Assembly (NCBI GenBank): GCA_951813065.1
Contig: CATOTH010000006.1
Location: 310,001-374,000, forward strand
Length of the DNA: 64,000 nt
Origin: an uncultured Bryobacterales bacterium
GTDB taxonomy: Bacteria > Acidobacteriota > Terriglobia > Bryobacterales > UBA6623
Direction of reading: 5' to 3'
Shown here: positions 2,294 through 37,588 of the stretch, piece after piece
How the letters are laid out: every line of letters begins with the position of its first letter
How positions within the stretch are numbered: position 1 is the first letter of the stretch
Made by a program: the position numbers and the translations under genes
The notes under the pieces: model-generated
Database searches by the model: none
The model's input: only the letters and a program-made list of their open reading frames with translations
Told to the model about the DNA's origin: nothing

Positions 2294-3805
2294 ATGGCAA
2301 TCATGGACGGGCTGCCGAGACCGCTCCAGGCATTCTCCGGAGGGAGTGCCTGGGTGTGCGGGGTGTTCCTGTTGGCCGCGTCCTGCTCAGTTGAGCCGGC
2401 GAACAGCCCGCTGGAGCGCCCCAATGTGCTCTTCATTGCGGTAGACGATCTCAATGTTGCGCTCGGGACATACGGTGAGTATCCGACCGCCAAGACCCCC
2501 AATATCGACCGCTTGGCGGCCGAAGGAATTCGATTTGACCGAGCATACGCGCAGGATCCACTCTGCAACCCTTCGCGCACCTCATTCCTGAGCGGTAGAA
2601 GGCCCGCGTCAACGAACGTCTATGGAAATTTCAAGGCACCCCGGGACCACATGGGCGATGTTGTGATGCTTCCCGAGTATTTTCGTGCAAACGGCTATTT
2701 CACAGCACGGGTGGGTAAGATCGCCCATGGCCGCTACGAGGGCTCCGTGGAGTGGGACATTTCCGAGAACGCGGCTCGCAGGGAGCACTACCTTCCCGGG
2801 GCGGATCGATCGGAGGTTCGTGACAACTCGTGGATCGAAGGGGCTGAAGACGGACTGTCGAGAGCCGAGATACTCGGTCATTTGGGGCGCCCGACGGGGA
2901 TGCCGCTCACGTGGCGCGCCACGGATGAGACCGAAGACGAAACACCGGACGGTCAAACGACTCGCAGGGTGGTTGAAATCATGCGAGCGAACCGCGACAA
3001 GCCCTTCTTCATTGGCGCCGGTTTTCACAAGCCGCACCAGCCTTGGGTCGCACCGGCAACTTTCTTCGAACAGCACCCTGTTAGTGAAGTGGAGCTTCCC
3101 GGCGGGCCGCCGGACGACACCGAGGACATCCCGGCGCCCGCGCTCGGTGGCTACCCGGAGGATCCGGATCACAGCCAGGATCAACAGCGGCAGGCGATTG
3201 CCGCATACCACGCAACTGTGACCTTGATCGACGTCCAGGTTGGGTTGCTCCTGGATGCCTTGGTGGAACTCGAGCTGGAGAGGTCGACCATCGTCGTCTT
3301 CGTCAGCGACCACGGCTTCCACCTCGGCGAGCACGGCGGATTGTGGCGTAAGCACACCCAATTCGAAGAATCAACCCGAGTGCCGCTGATTCTGAGAGTG
3401 CCCGGAGGCACAGCGGGCACTCCAACGAGTGCGCTGGTCGAACTCGTGGACCTCTATCCAACCTTGACTGATTTGTGTGGATTGCCCGCGCCTGAAGGGC
3501 TCGAAGGGACGAGTTTCCGGCCGGTGCTTGAGGATCTTGGAAGACCGTGGAAGGAGGCGGTTTTTTCGGAAGCGAAGAGAAACGGGGCTCATGGTCGGTC
3601 GGTGCGTACCGCGCGGTACCGGTTTACGGAGTGGACGCCACTCGATGGAAATGGTCCGCCGGAGTTCGAGCTGTACGACGTCGAGAAGGACCCGAAGGAG
3701 TATGACAACCTGGCATCGACACCAGCAGGCATAGAGATCATTCACCACTTGGCGGAAACGCTCGAATCTGGCTGGCAGGCCGCGGTGCCGGGGGATAAGA
3801 ATTGA
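2294..3805 (+). CDS. Exported sulfatase, iduronate-2-sulfatase-like
   Basis: The sulfatase fold starts at 'RPNVLFIAVDDLN', with the first metal-binding aspartates. The catalytic motif C-N-P-S-R lies about 91 residues from the chosen ATG, where Cys would be converted to formylglycine. 'GKIAHGRYEG' and 'VSDHGFHLGEHGGLWRK' supply further active-site residues. The start at 2294 puts a hydrophobic stretch and a lipobox-like 'LLAASC' at the N terminus, so the product is probably a lipoprotein; a longer reading to 2201 would bury the signal. Residue order and spacing resemble iduronate-2-sulfatase/choline-sulfatase-like enzymes. The sulfated substrate cannot be told. No formylglycine-generating enzyme gene is in the window. 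Confidence 0.9.
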   Translation: MAIMDGLPRPLQAFSGGSAWVCGVFLLAASCSVEPANSPLERPNVLFIAVDDLNVALGTYGEYPTAKTPNIDRLAAEGIRFDRAYAQDPLCNPSRTSFLSGRRPASTNVYGNFKAPRDHMGDVVMLPEYFRANGYFTARVGKIAHGRYEGSVEWDISENAARREHYLPGADRSEVRDNSWIEGAEDGLSRAEILGHLGRPTGMPLTWRATDETEDETPDGQTTRRVVEIMRANRDKPFFIGAGFHKPHQPWVAPATFFEQHPVSEVELPGGPPDDTEDIPAPALGGYPEDPDHSQDQQRQAIAAYHATVTLIDVQVGLLLDALVELELERSTIVVFVSDHGFHLGEHGGLWRKHTQFEESTRVPLILRVPGGTAGTPTSALVELVDLYPTLTDLCGLPAPEGLEGTSFRPVLEDLGRPWKEAVFSEAKRNGAHGRSVRTARYRFTEWTPLDGNGPPEFELYDVEKDPKEYDNLASTPAGIEIIHHLAETLESGWQAAVPGDKN

Positions 3806-6815: not shown

Positions 6816-9800
6816 TCACTGCAGGACCGACACCTGGGAAGGGCCCCTCTGCGTGCCTTCCAGGAATGCCAGCAAGTCGGCCAGCTCCTGCGTACTCAGC
6901 TCCGCATCGAGACCCGCAGGCATTACCGATACTCTCCCGGGACGCACCTCTTCAATCTGCGAGCGCTCAATCCGTTCGCGTTCCTCGGCGCCCGTCGCCA
7001 GTACGATCCAGTCCTCGGTCTCCTCCACTGTGACGCCGCTGTGGATGTCGAATTGCGTTTGGACGATCACCGGTTCGTAGCTGGTGACGAACGACGCGCT
7101 CGGATAGAGCACCGCCTCGAGCAGGTCGCGCCGCTCGCGAATCTGGCCGATCGTGGTCAAGCCAGGCCCGACCTTGCCACCCTGGAAGCCAATTGCATGG
7201 CACGAGATGCAGGCTGTCTTCTCAGCATTGAACACCGCCTGACCGCGACGCACGTCGCCCTCGGGAAGCGACGCCAGCAGGGACTCGAGCCGCTCGGTTT
7301 GTTCGGCCCGATCGGCGTCCAGCGAATTGGCAAAGGCCTTTGCTCGCTCTGCCAGAGATTCCGGGAACGCCGCAAAGAGCGTTTCTACGCTTCCGGCCTG
7401 CAACCCCGGACTCCCACGGCTTTGCTCGAGTGATTCGAGCAGAGCCTCTCCAAGCTCGGCGCTCCCTCCGGAAGCAAACGCGTCAAGAACCCGCGGGAGC
7501 TCCGCCGGTCCCGTCTCCTCGAGCGCCCTGGCCAACTCGAGACGCTGTGCGTCGTCGAGCGCAACACCAGCCAGCGCACGAGCGGCGGTCGCGCGCGTGT
7601 CCGCGTCTCGATCGGCGGCAAGGCTGTCCACCAAGAACGCGAAGGCGGACGAAGGCGTAGCTTCCGCGTCTGACAGCGCGGTTTCGAGCGCCTCGACCCT
7701 CGCGCGGGGCCCCAGGCCTTTGTTCTCGGAAACAGCTAGCAGCGATCTGCGCAACTGATCGCTCGGCCGCTTGAGCGTATTGGCCGCCCGCACGGCGGCC
7801 TTGGCGGTCTCGCCGGTCGCGTCACGCAGGATGCGAGTCAGCGCACTGTCCCATTCCTTAGGTCGCTCTTTGAGCAGCGCTCTGGACATGACTCTCACCG
7901 CGATACGCCGGGAAGCCGGGGAGCCCGACTCGGCAGCGCGCGCCACAACGGAGCGGATTTCCGGTGACTCGGCAAATCGGACAAGTTGGTCCTCAACCGC
8001 TTCCTCGCCCGCCCGCAGTCGTGCCTCAAACGGCCTCGCCAGTTCCGTGCCCCACTCCAGTCGTCGCCCCGCGATCCAAGAAGCCGTCTCGCGCAGCAGC
8101 TCGTCATTGGACGTGAGCAGCGGTACGACCGTGCGCGGTTTCAATGCACTCGGCCGCATCTGATCGAGCGCCAGCAGCGCTGCCCGTCGCGTACGCGCGG
8201 ATGCCGAACGCAGTCCCGTGCGGGTCGCTTCGGGATCAGCAATCTCGATCAGCGCGAACGTCAGCGAGTGAGCAAGGACCTGATCCTCGGCATCCGCCGC
8301 AGCCGCCAGCAACTCGCCTACCGCCTCGCTTTCGTGGATCCTCCCCAGCGCCTCGGCCGCAACGCGGGCCAGGGGTTTCGACTGCTCCAGCAAACCCAGT
8401 AGCGCCGGCGTCGCCTGCGCATCCCGCCAAAGCGATGCGCCATGCGCGGCTGCATGACGCACCGACTCGTCTTCGTCGGCAAGCGCCTGGCGCACCGCCG
8501 CGCGCGCTTCGGGCGTGTCGATCTGCGTGAGCGCCCAAACCGCATTCCTCTTCGCCGTGACCGAACCGTCGACAGTCGCCAGCACTGGTACAGCCGATTC
8601 GCCCATTCCCCCGAGCTCCCGCAGGGCGCGGTCGCGCACGAAGGGCCGCGGGTCGTCTAGCCTGTCGACTAGCTCTGAGGCCGCAACGTCCCAAGCAAGC
8701 TTGACCCCGCGGGGGTCTTCATCCGCCGTCATCCCCTTGCGGCGTATCCGATAGATGGCTCCGGGAACGTCGGCCTTGGCGAGTTGCGACGTCGGACAGC
8801 AGAGCTTGTACCAGCCCCCGGTATCGACTACCAAGAGGCTCCCGTCGGCGTCCTCCATCACGTCCGTCGGGTGAAAGTCCGCATCCGAGGAAACCAGCAG
8901 GTCCGAGTCCTCGCTCTCGAACGTCGCGCCGCTCGGCGACAGCCGATGCCGCAGCGCGCTGTGCGTGTTGAACGTCGTCGAGACCAAGTTCGTCCCCTCG
9001 AACCCAAGCGCTTCGGACTCGATCGCAGCCAACCCTACCGGCGCCGCCGGCCCAAGGTGCGAGATCGGATCGAGATACCCGCCCGTCATTGGATGGGCTT
9101 CGGCTGCGCGGTGCACCCTGCCATACACGCCGCCATAGATCGCGTGGATGACGCCGTCGCGGCGCCCCAACTCCGGAAACTGCAAGAACGTCGACGTCAA
9201 CATGCGCTCGCCCGTCGGCAGAAAGGCGACCTCCACCGGGTTGCTCATTCCGCCGGTCAGCACTGCCTCGATCGGCCCGCCCTCGGGCCGCCGCCTGAAG
9301 ACGTGCGCCGCTTTGGTGACCAGCGTCGAGCCGTCTGTGATCTCGTGCGTCTGCTCGGCGAAGGAGCCCTTGGTCCAGTAGATCCAGCCGTCCGGGCCCT
9401 CGTAGGGGCCGTGCAGATCGTTCGCACAGTTGGTCAGCGTCTTGGCGTCGTACCAAACCTCGCGATGCTCGGCGACGCCGTCGTCGTCGTCGTCCACCAA
9501 CTTCCAGATCACAGGCGGCGCGGTGACATAGACCGCTTCCTTGGTCCACAGCACACCCTCAGGAAACATCAGCTTGTCGGCGAAGACCGTCCGCGAATCG
9601 TAAACGCCGTCCCCGTCTCGATCCTCGAGCCGCAGAATGCTGTGGGGCTTCTCGGCGAGCTGCTCCTCCACAGGAGCGTTGGAACCCGAAGACTCGGCTA
9701 CGTAGAGCCGACCCGCGTCATCCATGTCGACAATCATGGGCCGCTCCACCAGCGGCGGCGCGGCTGCAACTACGACCTCGTAGCCCTCGGGGACGCTGAG

Positions 9801-9959: not shown

Positions 9960-11201
9960 CTAAGGCGCCTGCTCTTTCCGGCCCCTACGGTTGCGGGTCG
10001 GCATCACATGCGAACCGATCGGCGCCTTGAGCACTAACTGCTTGCGCTGCGGTCGGAAGCAAACCTTCTCGCTACAGGCTTGGAAGACAACCTCGATGGG
10101 TAGCTCGATCTCGGTGGGTTTGTCTCGCAGGGACCAGTCGAGGACCTCCGACCCTAGGATTACCGGGATGGCGACGTCGGTCACGCCTTCGTAGACGTTG
10201 AGCGTGACGCCGAGCGCGGGAAACTCGCGTGCCGTCGTCCGCGGATACTTCGGTTCGCCGATCCGCACGCCTTTCGTCTGTGCCACGGTTGCCGTCGAGG
10301 CGATGAAACATTCAGGCAGTGGGGCACCATACATGTGGTAGCCGTCTGCAACTTCGAAGCGCACGTAGACCGTGCTCTCGGACTCGAACCTGAGCGCCTC
10401 GTCGGCTAGGAACGCCGAGACCTTGACGTGTTCGTCGCTGAGCTCGGCCATCGGCGTCTCGTGCTTCGAAAGGATGCGGCCGATCGCCGAGTTGCGAATG
10501 GTGCCAGCGGAGGTCCGCGTGGCGAAGTTTCGATGGAAGAACTTCTCGGTCACCCGGCCCTCGGCGTCAGTGACGTAGACACCAGGGAACGGCAGTCCAT
10601 AGAAGCCGCGATTCGTGCCCCGGTGAATCACGTCACTGTCGGGATCGATGGTGGTGTTGAGGATGCCGAAGCGCTTGATGACTTCGGAATCGTAGTCGGA
10701 GAGAAGGTCAAAGGCGATGTCGTGCCTGTCGGCGAATTGCTTGAGATGCTGCTGAGCGTCGTAGCTGACGCCGTAGACCTTGATGTTCTCGGCGGTGAAA
10801 ATGTCGAGGGCTTGTTGCAGCTCAACTAGCTGCGTGCGGCAGTACGGTCACCACACAGCCGATCGGAAAAAGACGACGACCGACTTCGAATCGCCTCGGT
10901 CGGCATGGTAGTCGACCGCCTCGCCGTTGTGGTTCGGCAGAGTGAAGTCGGGCAACCGTTCGCCGATGTCGGGCCCGGTTGGGAAGTCGTGAGTCGCCGG
11001 GTAGCGGCGCCCCGGGTGGTCCACGGGCACCCGACCGGTGATGCCGAGGTCGTCAACGCGCGAGCCTTCGGGTAGGGCCTCGTGGGCAGCGCGTACTGTG
11101 GCCTTCTTCTCCTCTTCGTTGGCCTCCGCCGGCAGCGCGAGAAAGAACAGGAACAGCAGCAGGATGAGGGGGGCGGCTTTTTCGGTGGTCGTCACATTCA
11201 T
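9960..11201 (-). CDS. Exported redoxin fused to a DsbD-alpha-like domain; predicted selenoprotein with in-frame UGA
   Basis: A 117-residue frame ends at a TGA (10848-10850). The same frame continues open for 295 more codons to TAG at 9960, giving 413 residues if UGA is read as selenocysteine (residue 118). Residues 1-27 are a signal peptide. The redoxin domain reads 'LPDFTLPNHNGEAV', then 'VVVFFRSAVW-U-PYCRTQL', where homologues normally have W-C-P-x-C. Sec thus replaces the redox-active Cys and Cys121 is kept. The coding sequence after UGA ('LQQALDIFTAENIKVYGVSY', 'FDLLSDYDSEVIKRFGILN') is intact redoxin. The C-terminal 160 residues resemble the N-terminal domain of DsbD, with the cysteine pair 'ACSEKVC'. 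A good SECIS-like hairpin follows the UGA. The alternative is a nonsense-mutated gene, but a UGA precisely at the catalytic Cys with no other decay argues against that. Confidence 0.85.
10817..10833 (-). promoter_or_regulatory. Candidate bacterial SECIS element
   Basis: On the coding (minus) strand, 14 nt after the UGA, a perfect 6-bp stem GCAGCT/AGCTGC closes a 5-nt loop AGTTG. The loop begins 20 nt after the UGA and has G in its second position. Known bacterial SECIS elements sit immediately downstream of UGA, with a small apical loop about 16-37 nt away and a G among the first two loop bases. This hairpin meets those rules. The stem is short, and functional proof would need SelB binding or expression data. 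Confidence 0.6.
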
Positions 11202-11208
11202 TTCTGTT

Positions 11209-12284
11209 CCTGATTACCCAGCAGTTCCAGCCAGAGTTAGGAGCCGGTCGGGCAAGGGCGGGGTGCGCACTGCAACATAGACGAGACGGGGCACGAGATC
11301 GGCCAACTCGTAGCGCCGATTGAAGCGATAGGCAAATTCGGCGAGATAGCGCCCCGCATAGCGTGCCTCGCAGGCATGGTAGGTTCCGTCGATCGCACGC
11401 TTGACGTTGCCCAGCAGGGTGTTCACCCAGCTCAACCCGGGCGTCTCGCAGCTGCCCTTGCCGCCTCCGGTCACCTGCGCCTGGTGCGCACAGCCAGCCG
11501 CCTGCACGCCCCGGAAACAAGCCAGCCCGTCCGAGCGCACCAGCGTGCCCGCTTGCAGATGCTGCTCGGCCCAAGCTTGCAGCGCCCGCTTGCGGAAGCC
11601 CACCACCGGGCTCAGCCGGAGCCGCTCCGGACGCCCGTCCGCACTCACCTGGGCCGCGGCCACAAAGGGCGTCTTGCGCGCCGCACCGCGCCCGCGCTTG
11701 CCCCCGCTGGTCTCGCCGCCCAGGTAGGCGTCATCGATTTCCACGATGCCGCGCAGCGGCTGGCTGTCGTCCCGCTCGCGCATCGTCTGCATGAGCTTGT
11801 GCTTCAACATCCAAGCCGTGTTGTAGCTCACCCCCAACTGGCGCTTGAGATCCATCGCCGAGATGCCGTTCTTGGACTGGCTGAGCAAGTAGATGGCCAA
11901 GAACCAAGTCGTCAAGGGCAGCTTGGTGTTGTCGAACAGCGTGCCGGCGGTGAGCGAGGCCTGATGCTTGCAGCGGATGCACTGGAAGACTTTGCGCTGG
12001 CGTAGTTGGCAGCTCTTGCGGTAGCCGCAGCTGGGGCAGAGGAAGCCCTCAGGCCAGCGCGCCGCGAACACGGCTTGCTCGCATTGTGCGACGGTACCGT
12101 AGAGTTCGAGGAACTCAGGCAGGCTCTGGTCTTTCTGGAACTGGACCTTGTTCTTAGGCATAGATAACTCCTTTCTGATCAGATACTTAGTATACATCAA
12201 GCTGTATTTTGTGTCAACTGTATCTGGCATTCAATCGACAAATATTCGCCTCCTAAACTTGGCTGTGACTTCGGGGTAATCAGG
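11209..12284 (-). mobile_element. IS1595-family insertion sequence (1076 bp) with 8-bp target duplication
   Basis: The element is bounded by an inverted repeat CCTGATTACCC (11209-11219) and GGGTAATCAGG (12274-12284). It is flanked on both sides by the identical 8-mer TTTCTGTT (11201-11208 and 12285-12292), as expected for IS1595-type transposition. It carries one transposase gene reading on the minus strand. It landed directly at the start codon of the redoxin gene: the A of that ATG is the last base of the duplication. On the other side, the upstream chimeric gene reads into the element and stops at 12197 inside it. Confidence 0.92.
11214..12161 (-). CDS. IS1595-family transposase
   Basis: The product has 315 residues from the ATG at 12161, which is preceded by a good AGGAG ribosome-binding site. 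An N-terminal zinc ribbon ('CPSCGYRKSC' ... 'CIRCKHQASLTAGT') recognises DNA. The ISXO2-like DDE domain follows: 'GIVEIDDAYLGGE' (first acidic residues), 'LVRSDGLACFRG' (second) and 'SWVNTLLGNVKRAIDGTYH' (asparagine/late catalytic region). The reading frame is complete and looks active. Its stop lies 5 bp inside the end of the element. Confidence 0.9.
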   Translation of the reverse strand: MPKNKVQFQKDQSLPEFLELYGTVAQCEQAVFAARWPEGFLCPSCGYRKSCQLRQRKVFQCIRCKHQASLTAGTLFDNTKLPLTTWFLAIYLLSQSKNGISAMDLKRQLGVSYNTAWMLKHKLMQTMRERDDSQPLRGIVEIDDAYLGGETSGGKRGRGAARKTPFVAAAQVSADGRPERLRLSPVVGFRKRALQAWAEQHLQAGTLVRSDGLACFRGVQAAGCAHQAQVTGGGKGSCETPGLSWVNTLLGNVKRAIDGTYHACEARYAGRYLAEFAYRFNRRYELADLVPRLVYVAVRTPPLPDRLLTLAGTAG

Positions 12285-13936
12285 TTTCTGTTTATCCTTT
12301 CGGCTAGATAGACGCCGCTCAACCGGTCGTCGGGAATCTCAAACTCGACCGACGGTTCCCACTTGCATTCCCGTAGGCGCTTCTCGCCGATCGGCGGATC
12401 GGGTTGGGCTTGGCCCTGCAGCGAATCAAACCGCTTCATGAGCCGCCCGCCGTCGCCGCCGTAGTAGCCGGTACGGAAGATTTTCAGGCTGAACTCCGAA
12501 ACCGGATTCGTGCTCACCATGATCTTGAGCGTGTCGCCGGCGCGCACGCTCGCCTTGGAGCAGTAGCCTTCGATTCGCGGGGAACGCCACCAGGTATCCG
12601 GGTCGATGTAGGTATTGGTGAGCATCCAGTCCCGCGTTCCGGGCTTGGCGTTTTCTTGCTCGATCAAGTTCGGCGCGGCCGAAGCAGAACGGGGCGGGGC
12701 CTTAAGGGCTGTTCGCCCGGCTGTGAACGGATGCGGCGGGTCAGCCAACAGAACCTGACTGATGAAGTCGTCGACGATGTCGTTGGCCACGCCCGGTTTA
12801 TTGGTCGGCGAATGGCCGGCGGCATCGATAACCGAGACTTTGTGGGGGCTGTCGGGCTGATTGGCGACGGCCTGGCGGATCCCGTCGTATACCCAGTCGA
12901 CATTATTCAATCCGGCGGCCGCGGCTTCGGCGATCGGCGGTTGATTGCCGCCCAAGGCCCGCGGATCAGCCTTGCTGGCGATGAAGAGTGCCGGCACGTC
13001 ATCGAAGCCGGTGCTCACCTGCGCTTCGGGATGAAACTGAAACCTATGATCGGCAAAGGCCCCGATCTTGTTGACTACGCCATCAAAGTCGAAGTCGGCG
13101 GCATAAGGGTACCTGGGCGTCCCGGAGAATGCGGCGAAGATCAACCGGCTCCGCGGCGTGCTTAGGCCGGAGTCCGAGACGACGCCCGTCAGCGGCTTCC
13201 CGTCGGCCGCGAATCCGACGGCCAGTCCCCACACGCCGAGCCCTCCCGCACTAGTTCCGTGTGCAAACACATGGGTCGTCGGATAGTTCGCGACCGTGTA
13301 GTCGATAGCGGCCATCGTCGCCTGGAGGCCGGTCACCTCGCCGCCCTTGGGGTTGTTGGGGTACGGCGTGCCGAGTCCGAGGTACAGGTCGTAGTCAGAC
13401 ATGGACACCACGAGCAGGCGGTATCCTTCCTTGATGCGTCGGGTGACCGTGTTATCGATTGGCTGCCCGTTCTTGTCGATGATGGGGCGGAGGCCGATCT
13501 TCCGGAGGCCCTCAAAGGTCTCCTCGTTATTCCACGTGTCCTGGGTCTGATTCCCCGTCGCGTGGTACACGCCCTGCTCGTCGAAGTAGCCGATGCCTCC
13601 TCCATGGAGGTACACCCACAGCGGGGCCTCAGCGTCAGGATTGTCCAGGGGCTCCGCGACAAGGACGGTGTAGTTGCCCGACAGGCCGGCGTTGTAGCCA
13701 AGATTGCGGCAAGAATCGAATTTCCACTCGCTACCGACGAAACTGACAGTTTCTTTGTGGGCAAGGACCACCTTGTTGCTGTCTCGAACGACAATCGGCG
13801 GCGAAGGCTGCGCTGCGGCCTGACCGTAGACTGAGCCGGTTGTGATCAAGAGGGCCATAGGGAACAGGCACTTCACCCATCGACTCGTCACGAAGGAACT
13901 CTCTCCACAGTTCAGTGCGTGGCGCTTCTGATTCAT
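12197..13936 (-). CDS. Chimeric exported alpha/beta hydrolase fused to the start of a dimethylformamidase-like domain
   Basis: The ATG at 13936 has an AGGAG site just upstream and opens a signal peptide ('VKCLFPMALLITTGSVYGQA'). Residues about 30-400 form an alpha/beta hydrolase with nucleophile 'HGTSAGG' and a late histidine in 'DAAGHSP'. After about residue 415 the sequence changes abruptly to 'ENAKPGTRDWML ... IEGYC', about 110 residues matching the front of the dimethylformamidase-like proteins at 18550 and 20172. That match breaks at 'LSGVYL'. The last 30-odd residues are encoded by the tail of the broken gene plus IS DNA. It looks like a deletion fusion of two neighbouring exported enzymes; the hydrolase half could still work. 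Confidence 0.7.
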   Translation of the reverse strand: MNQKRHALNCGESSFVTSRWVKCLFPMALLITTGSVYGQAAAQPSPPIVVRDSNKVVLAHKETVSFVGSEWKFDSCRNLGYNAGLSGNYTVLVAEPLDNPDAEAPLWVYLHGGGIGYFDEQGVYHATGNQTQDTWNNEETFEGLRKIGLRPIIDKNGQPIDNTVTRRIKEGYRLLVVSMSDYDLYLGLGTPYPNNPKGGEVTGLQATMAAIDYTVANYPTTHVFAHGTSAGGLGVWGLAVGFAADGKPLTGVVSDSGLSTPRSRLIFAAFSGTPRYPYAADFDFDGVVNKIGAFADHRFQFHPEAQVSTGFDDVPALFIASKADPRALGGNQPPIAEAAAAGLNNVDWVYDGIRQAVANQPDSPHKVSVIDAAGHSPTNKPGVANDIVDDFISQVLLADPPHPFTAGRTALKAPPRSASAAPNLIEQENAKPGTRDWMLTNTYIDPDTWWRSPRIEGYCSKASVRAGDTLKIMVSTNPVSEFSLKIFRTGYYGGDGGRLMKRFDSLQGQAQPDPPIGEKRLRECKWEPSVEFEIPDDRLSGVYLAERINRNLITPKSQPSLGGEYLSIECQIQLTQNTA

Positions 13937-13951
13937 GATGTTACTCCTTTC

Positions 13952-13984
13952 GTAAATGGCTCTCAATGGGTTCCCGTAGGTCAG
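13952..13984. repeat. 33-bp direct repeat, copy 1
   Basis: A 33-bp block beginning GTAAATGGCTCTCAATGGG and ending CGTAGGTCAG is identical to the block at 15677-15709, in the same orientation. Copy 1 lies just upstream of the ribosome-binding site of the chimeric hydrolase gene (minus strand). On its other side a plus-strand transposon-associated gene fragment begins. The two copies bracket a 1.7-kb segment with a fragmentary transposon gene, a tandem repeat and a low-GC membrane-protein gene. Confidence 0.85.
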
Positions 13985-14314
13985 CGCGCAGGACTGTCGC
14001 TGGCAACGGTGCAGCGGGCAATTCTGCTGGGCAGTGTGCGCAAATCGATGAGCCTGCTCGATCGGCCAGACGGGGAGCTGGTGCGCAGTCTGCGCTACTT
14101 CGCCAGCTTGCTGGAGGAGGTGCGGACAGAGTCGTTCCCGGCATCGTACTGGCAGCACTTGGAGTTCAATCTGCGCCGCTGCGAGCGGATCGCGGAGGTC
14201 CGGCGGGCGGAAGCTGCCAAAGGTGCCTGTCCAGATTTGGCACAGGCAGACCCGCCTCGAGTGGTCCGGAGACCTTCATCTGCCACTGGCGAAGCCAGAA
14301 AGGTGACGGGATGA
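13985..14314 (+). pseudogene. 3' fragment of a transposon-associated gene
   Basis: The plus-strand frame encodes about 100 residues, including 'SLATVQRAILLGSVRKSMSL' and 'LVRSLRYFASLLEEVRTESF', then 'YWQHLEFNLRRCE'. This resembles the C-terminal part of helper proteins found beside transposases ('...RSLxYF.PVIEEVL.....YxxYLRxKL'). Nothing upstream of 13985 continues the gene; the break coincides with the 33-bp repeat. I call it a relic of a transposon passenger gene. The family assignment is tentative. Confidence 0.4.
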
Positions 14315-37234: not shown

Positions 37235-37588
37235 TGGTGGAGGCGGCGGGAATCGAACCCGCGTCCGAAAAAGACCACCGAAAAGAGACTACATGCTTAG
37301 TCCATTCGTGAATCTCGACCGCAGACTGGGAATGAACAAGCCGACTGCGGTCCAGCTCGATTGATCTCGGCTCCTGAACTCCGAGCAGAAGTCCCGAGGC
37401 CTATCCCGCAAAATGACACCTATGACTTGCGTGCGAGCCCACCAGTCTAGGCGGCTGCCTAAAGCTTAGGCAGCGTGTGCAAACTGCATGTTGTTGGCAG
37501 TTCTTGTGTTCCGATCGTTTAACGGGTGCTCGGAGCCCGGCATGCCTCTTAGCAGCAATTACGATTTCGTCGAATCCTGTACGCCCCC
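37235..37588 (-). ncRNA. ssrA: Transfer-messenger RNA
   Basis: The minus strand from 37588 starts GGGGGCGTACAGGATTCGAC and ends with a T-arm (GGTTCGATTCCCGCC), CGCCTCC and an encoded ACCA at 37235. The 5' GGGGGCG pairs with the 3' CGCCTCC. The tag reading frame (37466-37498) starts at GCC and encodes ANNMQFAHAA followed by TAA. It is a one-piece tmRNA of 354 nt. The RNA rescues stalled ribosomes with SmpB. The tag ends AHAA, a slight variation on the common ALAA. Its 3' end is the presumed integration target of the adjacent island. Confidence 0.95.

Follow-up and report, generated by a model that had tools for sequence, protein, structure and literature searches.

A predicted selenoprotein uniting redoxin and DsbD_N domains in an uncultured Bryobacterales bacterium and its relatives

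The minus strand of the stretch of Bryobacterales DNA analysed here (64,000 nucleotides in length, henceforth the window) carries a frame of 413 residues, 11201-9960, which opens with an ATG at 11201, closes with a TAG stop at 9960-9962, and contains a sole TGA, at codon 118 (10850-10848). This raises the question of whether the codon is a stop or is decoded as selenocysteine (Sec) and, in the latter case, of what the resulting protein might do. The first-pass annotation of the locus had described the UGA as the only interruption of the frame, and the translation agrees with this. A 413-residue reading with one TGA lies far beyond chance expectation. The predicted Sec118 is situated in a W-U-P-Y-C motif (FFRSAVW-U-PYCRTQLVEL), and its partner Cys121 (10839..10841, minus strand) is invariant in both alignments A1 and A2; the U-x-x-C center originally assigned to the protein is supported.

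Decoding of the in-frame UGA

The codon at the Sec118 column was scored in 176 genes, drawn from the 257-genome set of the host's order and from named genomes, and was found to be TGA in 166, TGC in 7 and TGT in 3, with no residue besides Sec or Cys at this position; these are the Sec/Cys pairs that had been anticipated for this column. The TGA-bearing homologues span Acidobacteriota, Chloroflexota and about 8 further groups, and at least 8 Sec/Cys state changes can be mapped on the tree (180 rows). A misread TGC or TGT had been named as a possible source of the TGA, but the independent genome of another member of the genus, G256, also has the TGA in its copy, whose product is 98% identical, which rules out a local sequencing error. 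The absence of all Sec machinery had likewise been named as a result that would speak against a selenoprotein. The genome contains all four components sought, namely selA (509 bits) and selD (296 bits), both above the curated cut-offs, selB (358 bits, cut-off 242), and a tRNA-Sec (72 bits, cut-off 47), for which ARAGORN reports the anticodon tca (UCA).

Comparison across genes also revealed, at 10833-10817, an element absent from the first-pass annotation, namely a hairpin (GCAGCT-AGUUG-AGCUGC; 10817..10833, minus strand) with a 6-bp stem and a 5-nt loop, located 17-33 nt past the first base of the UGA and bearing GU at apical loop positions 2-3 in all Sec genes. Of the 159 distinct Sec genes, 145 form all six pairs, against 1 of the 10 Cys genes, and the position of the stem is unique in that 91% of the Sec genes are fully paired there, as against less than 2% at the next best non-overlapping position. 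RNAalifold returns exactly the same hairpin from the Sec genes and not from the Cys genes. Within the stem, the third base of a Gln codon covaries with the first base of a Leu codon, a synonymous site pair that occurs among the distinct Sec genes as CAG/CTG (107), CAA/TTR (47) and mixed combinations (5, i.e. 2 + 3). In about 18 of 20 independent cases on the tree, a switch at one site is accompanied by a switch at the other, and in 0 the change runs in the opposite direction (median p 8e-6); the outer pair (C-G/G-C) follows the same covariation pattern with too few switches for significance. Since the covariation is synonymous, it is not accounted for by coding constraint, and the hairpin is to be regarded as a bacterial SECIS. 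Minimum free energy folds of the window sequence yield the hairpin when 36-45 nt are folded and prefer a different structure at 60 nt, and an Rfam scan of the window reports no SECIS, its only hit being a tmRNA; it is the cross-gene comparison that establishes the element.

Taken as the standard code would have it, UGA118 would be a true stop, leaving either a pseudogene or a product that stops after 117 residues, while the downstream ORF, which opens with the GTG at 10631, would be translated on its own; this is formally the default reading, and the presence of an IS element at the 5' end of the gene (see below) could be cited in its favor. However, the TGA is kept across phyla with Sec/Cys exchange, the covarying hairpin lies just 3' of it in a genome with complete Sec machinery, and coding constraint persists past codon 118. 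Downstream of the UGA, dN and dS are 0.19 and 0.81 between the window gene and L085, and 0.0075 and 0.044 between the window gene and the sister species, values that point to purifying selection; together with the two Pfam domains scoring above their gathering cut-offs, they uphold the earlier description of the post-UGA frame as intact. A true stop is, in light of the above, extremely improbable, and a pseudogene or a sequencing error is ruled out by this selection and by the TGA in G256 and the other homologues. Decoding of UGA118 as Trp or Cys, whether through general recoding or mis-reading, is scarcely credible either and has no observation in its favor: UGA is the terminator of 13 of the 27 long window ORFs checked, including the sulfatase gene ending at 3805, which rules out genome-wide recoding, as had been held from the start; all ten non-TGA genes have Cys at the column; and the SECIS hairpin, present here, is mostly lost from the Cys genes. 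With the Sec machinery, the Sec/Cys pairs and the covarying SECIS in hand, the initial selenoprotein call is borne out, and we consider it virtually certain that the gene at 9960..11201 (minus strand) encodes a selenoprotein with redoxin and DsbD_N domains. No finding of the analysis speaks against Sec. On the sequence evidence, the host reads UGA118 as Sec by means of SelA, SelB, SelD and tRNA-Sec of its own, using the hairpin right after the codon.

Domain architecture and predicted redox chemistry

The N-terminal half of the protein harbors a redoxin domain of the AhpC-TSA family (residues 79-219; 10545..10967, minus strand), which matches PF00578 with 102 bits (gathering cut-off 26; E 2.4e-29). 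An AlphaFold2 model of the whole protein, built with 61 sequences, has a mean pLDDT of 91 and a pTM of 0.87, and in it the redoxin half is predicted to adopt the PrxQ/Bcp/AhpE fold (Z up to 18.9), making it a PrxQ/Bcp-fold domain with a W-U-P-Y-C motif. By sequence, it is assignable to the known "Prx-like UxxC" class of selenoproteins. In the alignment to 2cx3, the peroxiredoxin signature PxxxTxxC is replaced by SxxxUxxC (SAVWUPYC), with Sec118 occupying the Thr/Ser site of PrxQ, Cys121 the peroxidatic site, and Ser114 the position of the Pro. The C-terminal half contains a DsbD N-terminal-like domain (residues 272-389; 10035..10388, minus strand), matched by DsbD_N (PF11412) with 44.1 bits (gathering cut-off 25; E 2.5e-11) and recovered in 61 of 61 members of alignment A2. 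When predicted alone (pLDDT 91), this domain has as its first eleven fold matches the structures of the ScsB N-terminal domain and nDsbD (Z 10.2-11.9, with unrelated folds from 8.7 down); complexes of nDsbD with thioredoxin-fold partners (1z5y, 1jzd) also occur among its fold matches. Sequence and model concur in portraying it as an immunoglobulin-fold domain of the nDsbD/ScsB type bearing a C-x4-C pair, C376-SEKV-C381 (10059..10076, minus strand), and the original assignment of a DsbD-alpha-like domain is upheld. Residues U/C118, C121, C376 and C381 are invariant in all 61 sequences of A2. A further cysteine of this domain, Cys298 (TGT), is found in the host genome alone among the 61 aligned sequences, the sister species and 55 of the 61 having Gly, and is possibly a recent substitution.

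The protein begins with a hydrophobic segment (approximately residues 1-29; 11115..11201, minus strand), recognized by eye as a probable Sec signal peptide; this terminus has low pLDDT in the structure model, with a predicted helix at residues 10-20. Export to the periplasm, which the first-pass annotation had deemed likely, can be inferred from this segment. The Chloroflexota members (L109-L126) possess both domains and have no N-terminal hydrophobic segment, which suggests that they constitute a cytoplasmic version served by another electron donor, so that DsbD cannot be the universal donor in this family.

In DsbD itself, the N-terminal domain conveys electrons from the C-terminal domain (cDsbD) to periplasmic thioredoxin-fold partners such as CcmG and DsbC. 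The protein described here could be viewed as a covalently fused version of such an nDsbD-CcmG/DsbC electron-transfer pair. It lacks the features of a whole DsbD, i.e. the transmembrane core and the C-terminal thioredoxin domain, and with no membrane electron channel of its own it would depend on an external donor, for instance the single full-length DsbD of the genome (G000:C9), in which an N-terminal, a membrane and a C-terminal Cys domain are all present, those outside the membrane core being assigned by reading the sequence. For the same reason, the self-contained relay originally envisaged has to be given up, as is further indicated by the Chloroflexota members without a signal sequence. 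In the mechanism that we propose, the C-terminal thioredoxin domain of the host DsbD would reduce the C376/C381 pair, from which the electrons would travel intramolecularly to the Sec118-Cys121 selenenylsulfide, and the reduced Sec118 selenolate would then reduce an oxidised substrate, be it a protein disulfide, a sulfenate or a peroxide. We give this specific route, from DsbD via C376/C381 and Sec118/Cys121 to the substrate, an even chance of being correct. The neighborhoods of homologues show no conserved neighbor tying the selenoprotein to DsbD or CcdA; the recurrent genes, namely sulfatase (9 loci), GST (7) and homogentisate dioxygenase (5), come mostly from close relatives and do not amount to a consistent partner. 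A precedent for routing electrons in this manner is provided by the transfer from ScsB via TlpA to the envelope peroxiredoxin PprX and by the DsbD-fed PilB (PMC5403849).

It is conceivable, if unlikely, that the DsbD-like domain is instead a structural or docking module that takes no part in a relay, the redoxin being fed by some other thioredoxin-like protein. The signal-less Chloroflexota members would fit such a role, as they carry both domains and cannot use a periplasmic cDsbD, but the C-x4-C pair is invariant in all 61 sequences, these very members included, which argues for redox work. With regard to the substrate, the Sec redoxin might be an envelope peroxidase, in which H2O2 or organic hydroperoxides would be attacked by the Sec118 selenolate, Cys121 would act as the resolving residue, and the DsbD-like domain would re-reduce the center. 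The top fold matches of the redoxin domain are PrxQ/Bcp and AhpE peroxiredoxins, Sec is frequent in place of the peroxidatic Cys in general, and the genome has two UGA-bearing PrxQ-type genes besides; yet the canonical peroxide site is altered to a thioredoxin-like UxxC, and we hold a peroxidase to be a possibility of less than even standing. Given the loss of PxxxTxxC, a thiol-disulfide reductase is slightly preferred over a peroxidase; the early suggestion of a peroxidase or reductase survives in the sense that thiol-disulfide chemistry is no less likely than peroxidase activity. The most likely function is accordingly worded broadly, as a thiol-disulfide/peroxide reductase that carries its own electron-delivery domain, which would be fed by DsbD. 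A two-domain selenoprotein and a redox-enzyme role, taken jointly, are highly probable.

The two PrxQ-type genes are found elsewhere in the same genome. One of them (L028; G000:C5:584525-584839) reads AFTGG-U-TREMKGY and keeps PxxxTxxU, the other (L026; G000:C1:99635-100063) reads ALSGG-U-GLELKGY, and each is followed by a predicted hairpin after its UGA. By sequence, the host genome probably encodes at least four selenoproteins.

Phyletic distribution and comparison with known systems

Hundreds of bacteria from soil, sponges and the sea share this two-domain design, which was found in 95 of the 257 genomes of the host's order, where a single internal TGA is the usual state. Its spread in sequence data marks the redoxin-DsbD_N fusion as an old and widespread architecture that is not peculiar to the host genome. 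The window copy belongs to a strongly supported clade of 24-26 rows, comprising sequences from Thermoanaerobaculia, Holophagales, Vicinamibacterales and gammaproteobacteria, and is separate from the usual paralogue of the genus (G000:C10:115472), itself a UGA gene. Within the genus, a window-type copy was detected only in the host genome (G000) and G256 at the E-value used, a pattern that fits either horizontal gain or repeated loss. Certain genomes carry multiple copies: a record titled uncultured Pseudohongiella has tandem redoxin-DsbD_N selenoprotein genes (L107:5911-7095 and 7373-8581), and another locus, L105, also has two UGA-bearing copies.

A search of the open-licence literature and curated families uncovered no family or paper naming a redoxin-DsbD_N selenoprotein, and no NCBIfam model matches the 413-residue protein at the cut-off, suggesting that these proteins apparently form a fusion family without a name so far. 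The architecture had been billed as new; this is right as far as curated models and papers are concerned and wrong as regards its occurrence, in view of its presence across the order and in many phyla. UxxC Prx-like selenoproteins have already been listed (PMC2398784, PMC9312934, PMC13188914), with no DsbD_N-redoxin fusion mentioned in these lists. The closest entries, compared by description only, are the Prx-like thiol:disulfide oxidoreductase (PF00578, UxxC/UxxU; PMC9312934, PMC13188914) and Prx-like 1 (PMC2398784), which share the AhpC-TSA domain, a Sec-first UxxC and the existence of Cys homologues, but are listed by their redoxin domain with no mention of DsbD_N or export. The DsbD/ScsB N-terminal domain (nDsbD, PF11412) shares the predicted fold and a close Cys pair facing thioredoxin-fold partners, whereas in the present protein the domain is C-terminal, has C-x4-C spacing, is accompanied by no transmembrane part, and is fused to a thioredoxin-fold partner. 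PrxQ/Bcp and AhpE peroxiredoxins share the redoxin fold and differ from it in having PxxxTxxC where it has SxxxUxxC, as well as in its predicted export and fusion. The Caulobacter ScsB-TlpA-PprX system and Neisseria PilB (PMC5403849) are alike in bringing DsbD-family electrons to a periplasmic reductase; however, the former consists of separate proteins, the latter has another enzyme domain (Msr), and neither contains Sec. Prx-like 3/Unknown_3 and the rhodanese/DsbD-like TsoB (PMC2398784, PMC13188914) resemble it as selenoproteins fused to a Cys-bearing domain, but Unknown_3 is listed as having three Cys, a CxxC among them, and TsoB combines a rhodanese domain with two Sec.

That these proteins represent an envelope selenoenzyme family with its own DsbD-alpha domain, through which electrons from membrane DsbD reach Sec in one chain, is in our estimate an evenly balanced proposition. 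If true, a reductase-plus-donor unit, covalently fused and selenium-powered, would operate in the periplasm of Acidobacteriota and their relatives as a distinct, unnamed selenoprotein family. The architecture points to a place for selenium in redox processes of the cell envelope in Acidobacteriota, Chloroflexota, and bacteria from sponges and marine habitats. The donor-acceptor fusion would also offer one purified protein for the direct study of DsbD-type electron transfer to a selenol. Standard annotation is expected to split the gene at the UGA, so that this large and old architecture may be broken in many genomes.

The upstream insertion and other features of the window

An IS1595-type element (11209..12284, minus strand; Pfam DDE_Tnp_IS1595) is inserted just upstream of the start codon and is flanked by an 8-bp target duplication, TTTCTGTT, at 11201-11208 and 12285-12292. 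The sister genome has no IS at this site and is collinear up to 11208. The element now separates the start codon from the native GAAAGGAT ribosome-binding site, which it has displaced, and the IS end together with the duplication supplies an AGGA near the ATG. Translation downstream of the IS may thereby survive, and a promoter within the IS could drive expression; because the IS has cut the gene off from its original upstream sequence, expression in the present strain is uncertain. Comparison with the sister genome (L081) shows that, ahead of the selenoprotein gene, approximately 4 kb with a sulfatase in it is absent or differently arranged. A 653-residue ORF at 12197-14158 has a truncated DMFA2_C match and ends inside the IS. 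The tmRNA gene of the window is located at 37235-37588 on the minus strand (Rfam, 178 bits).
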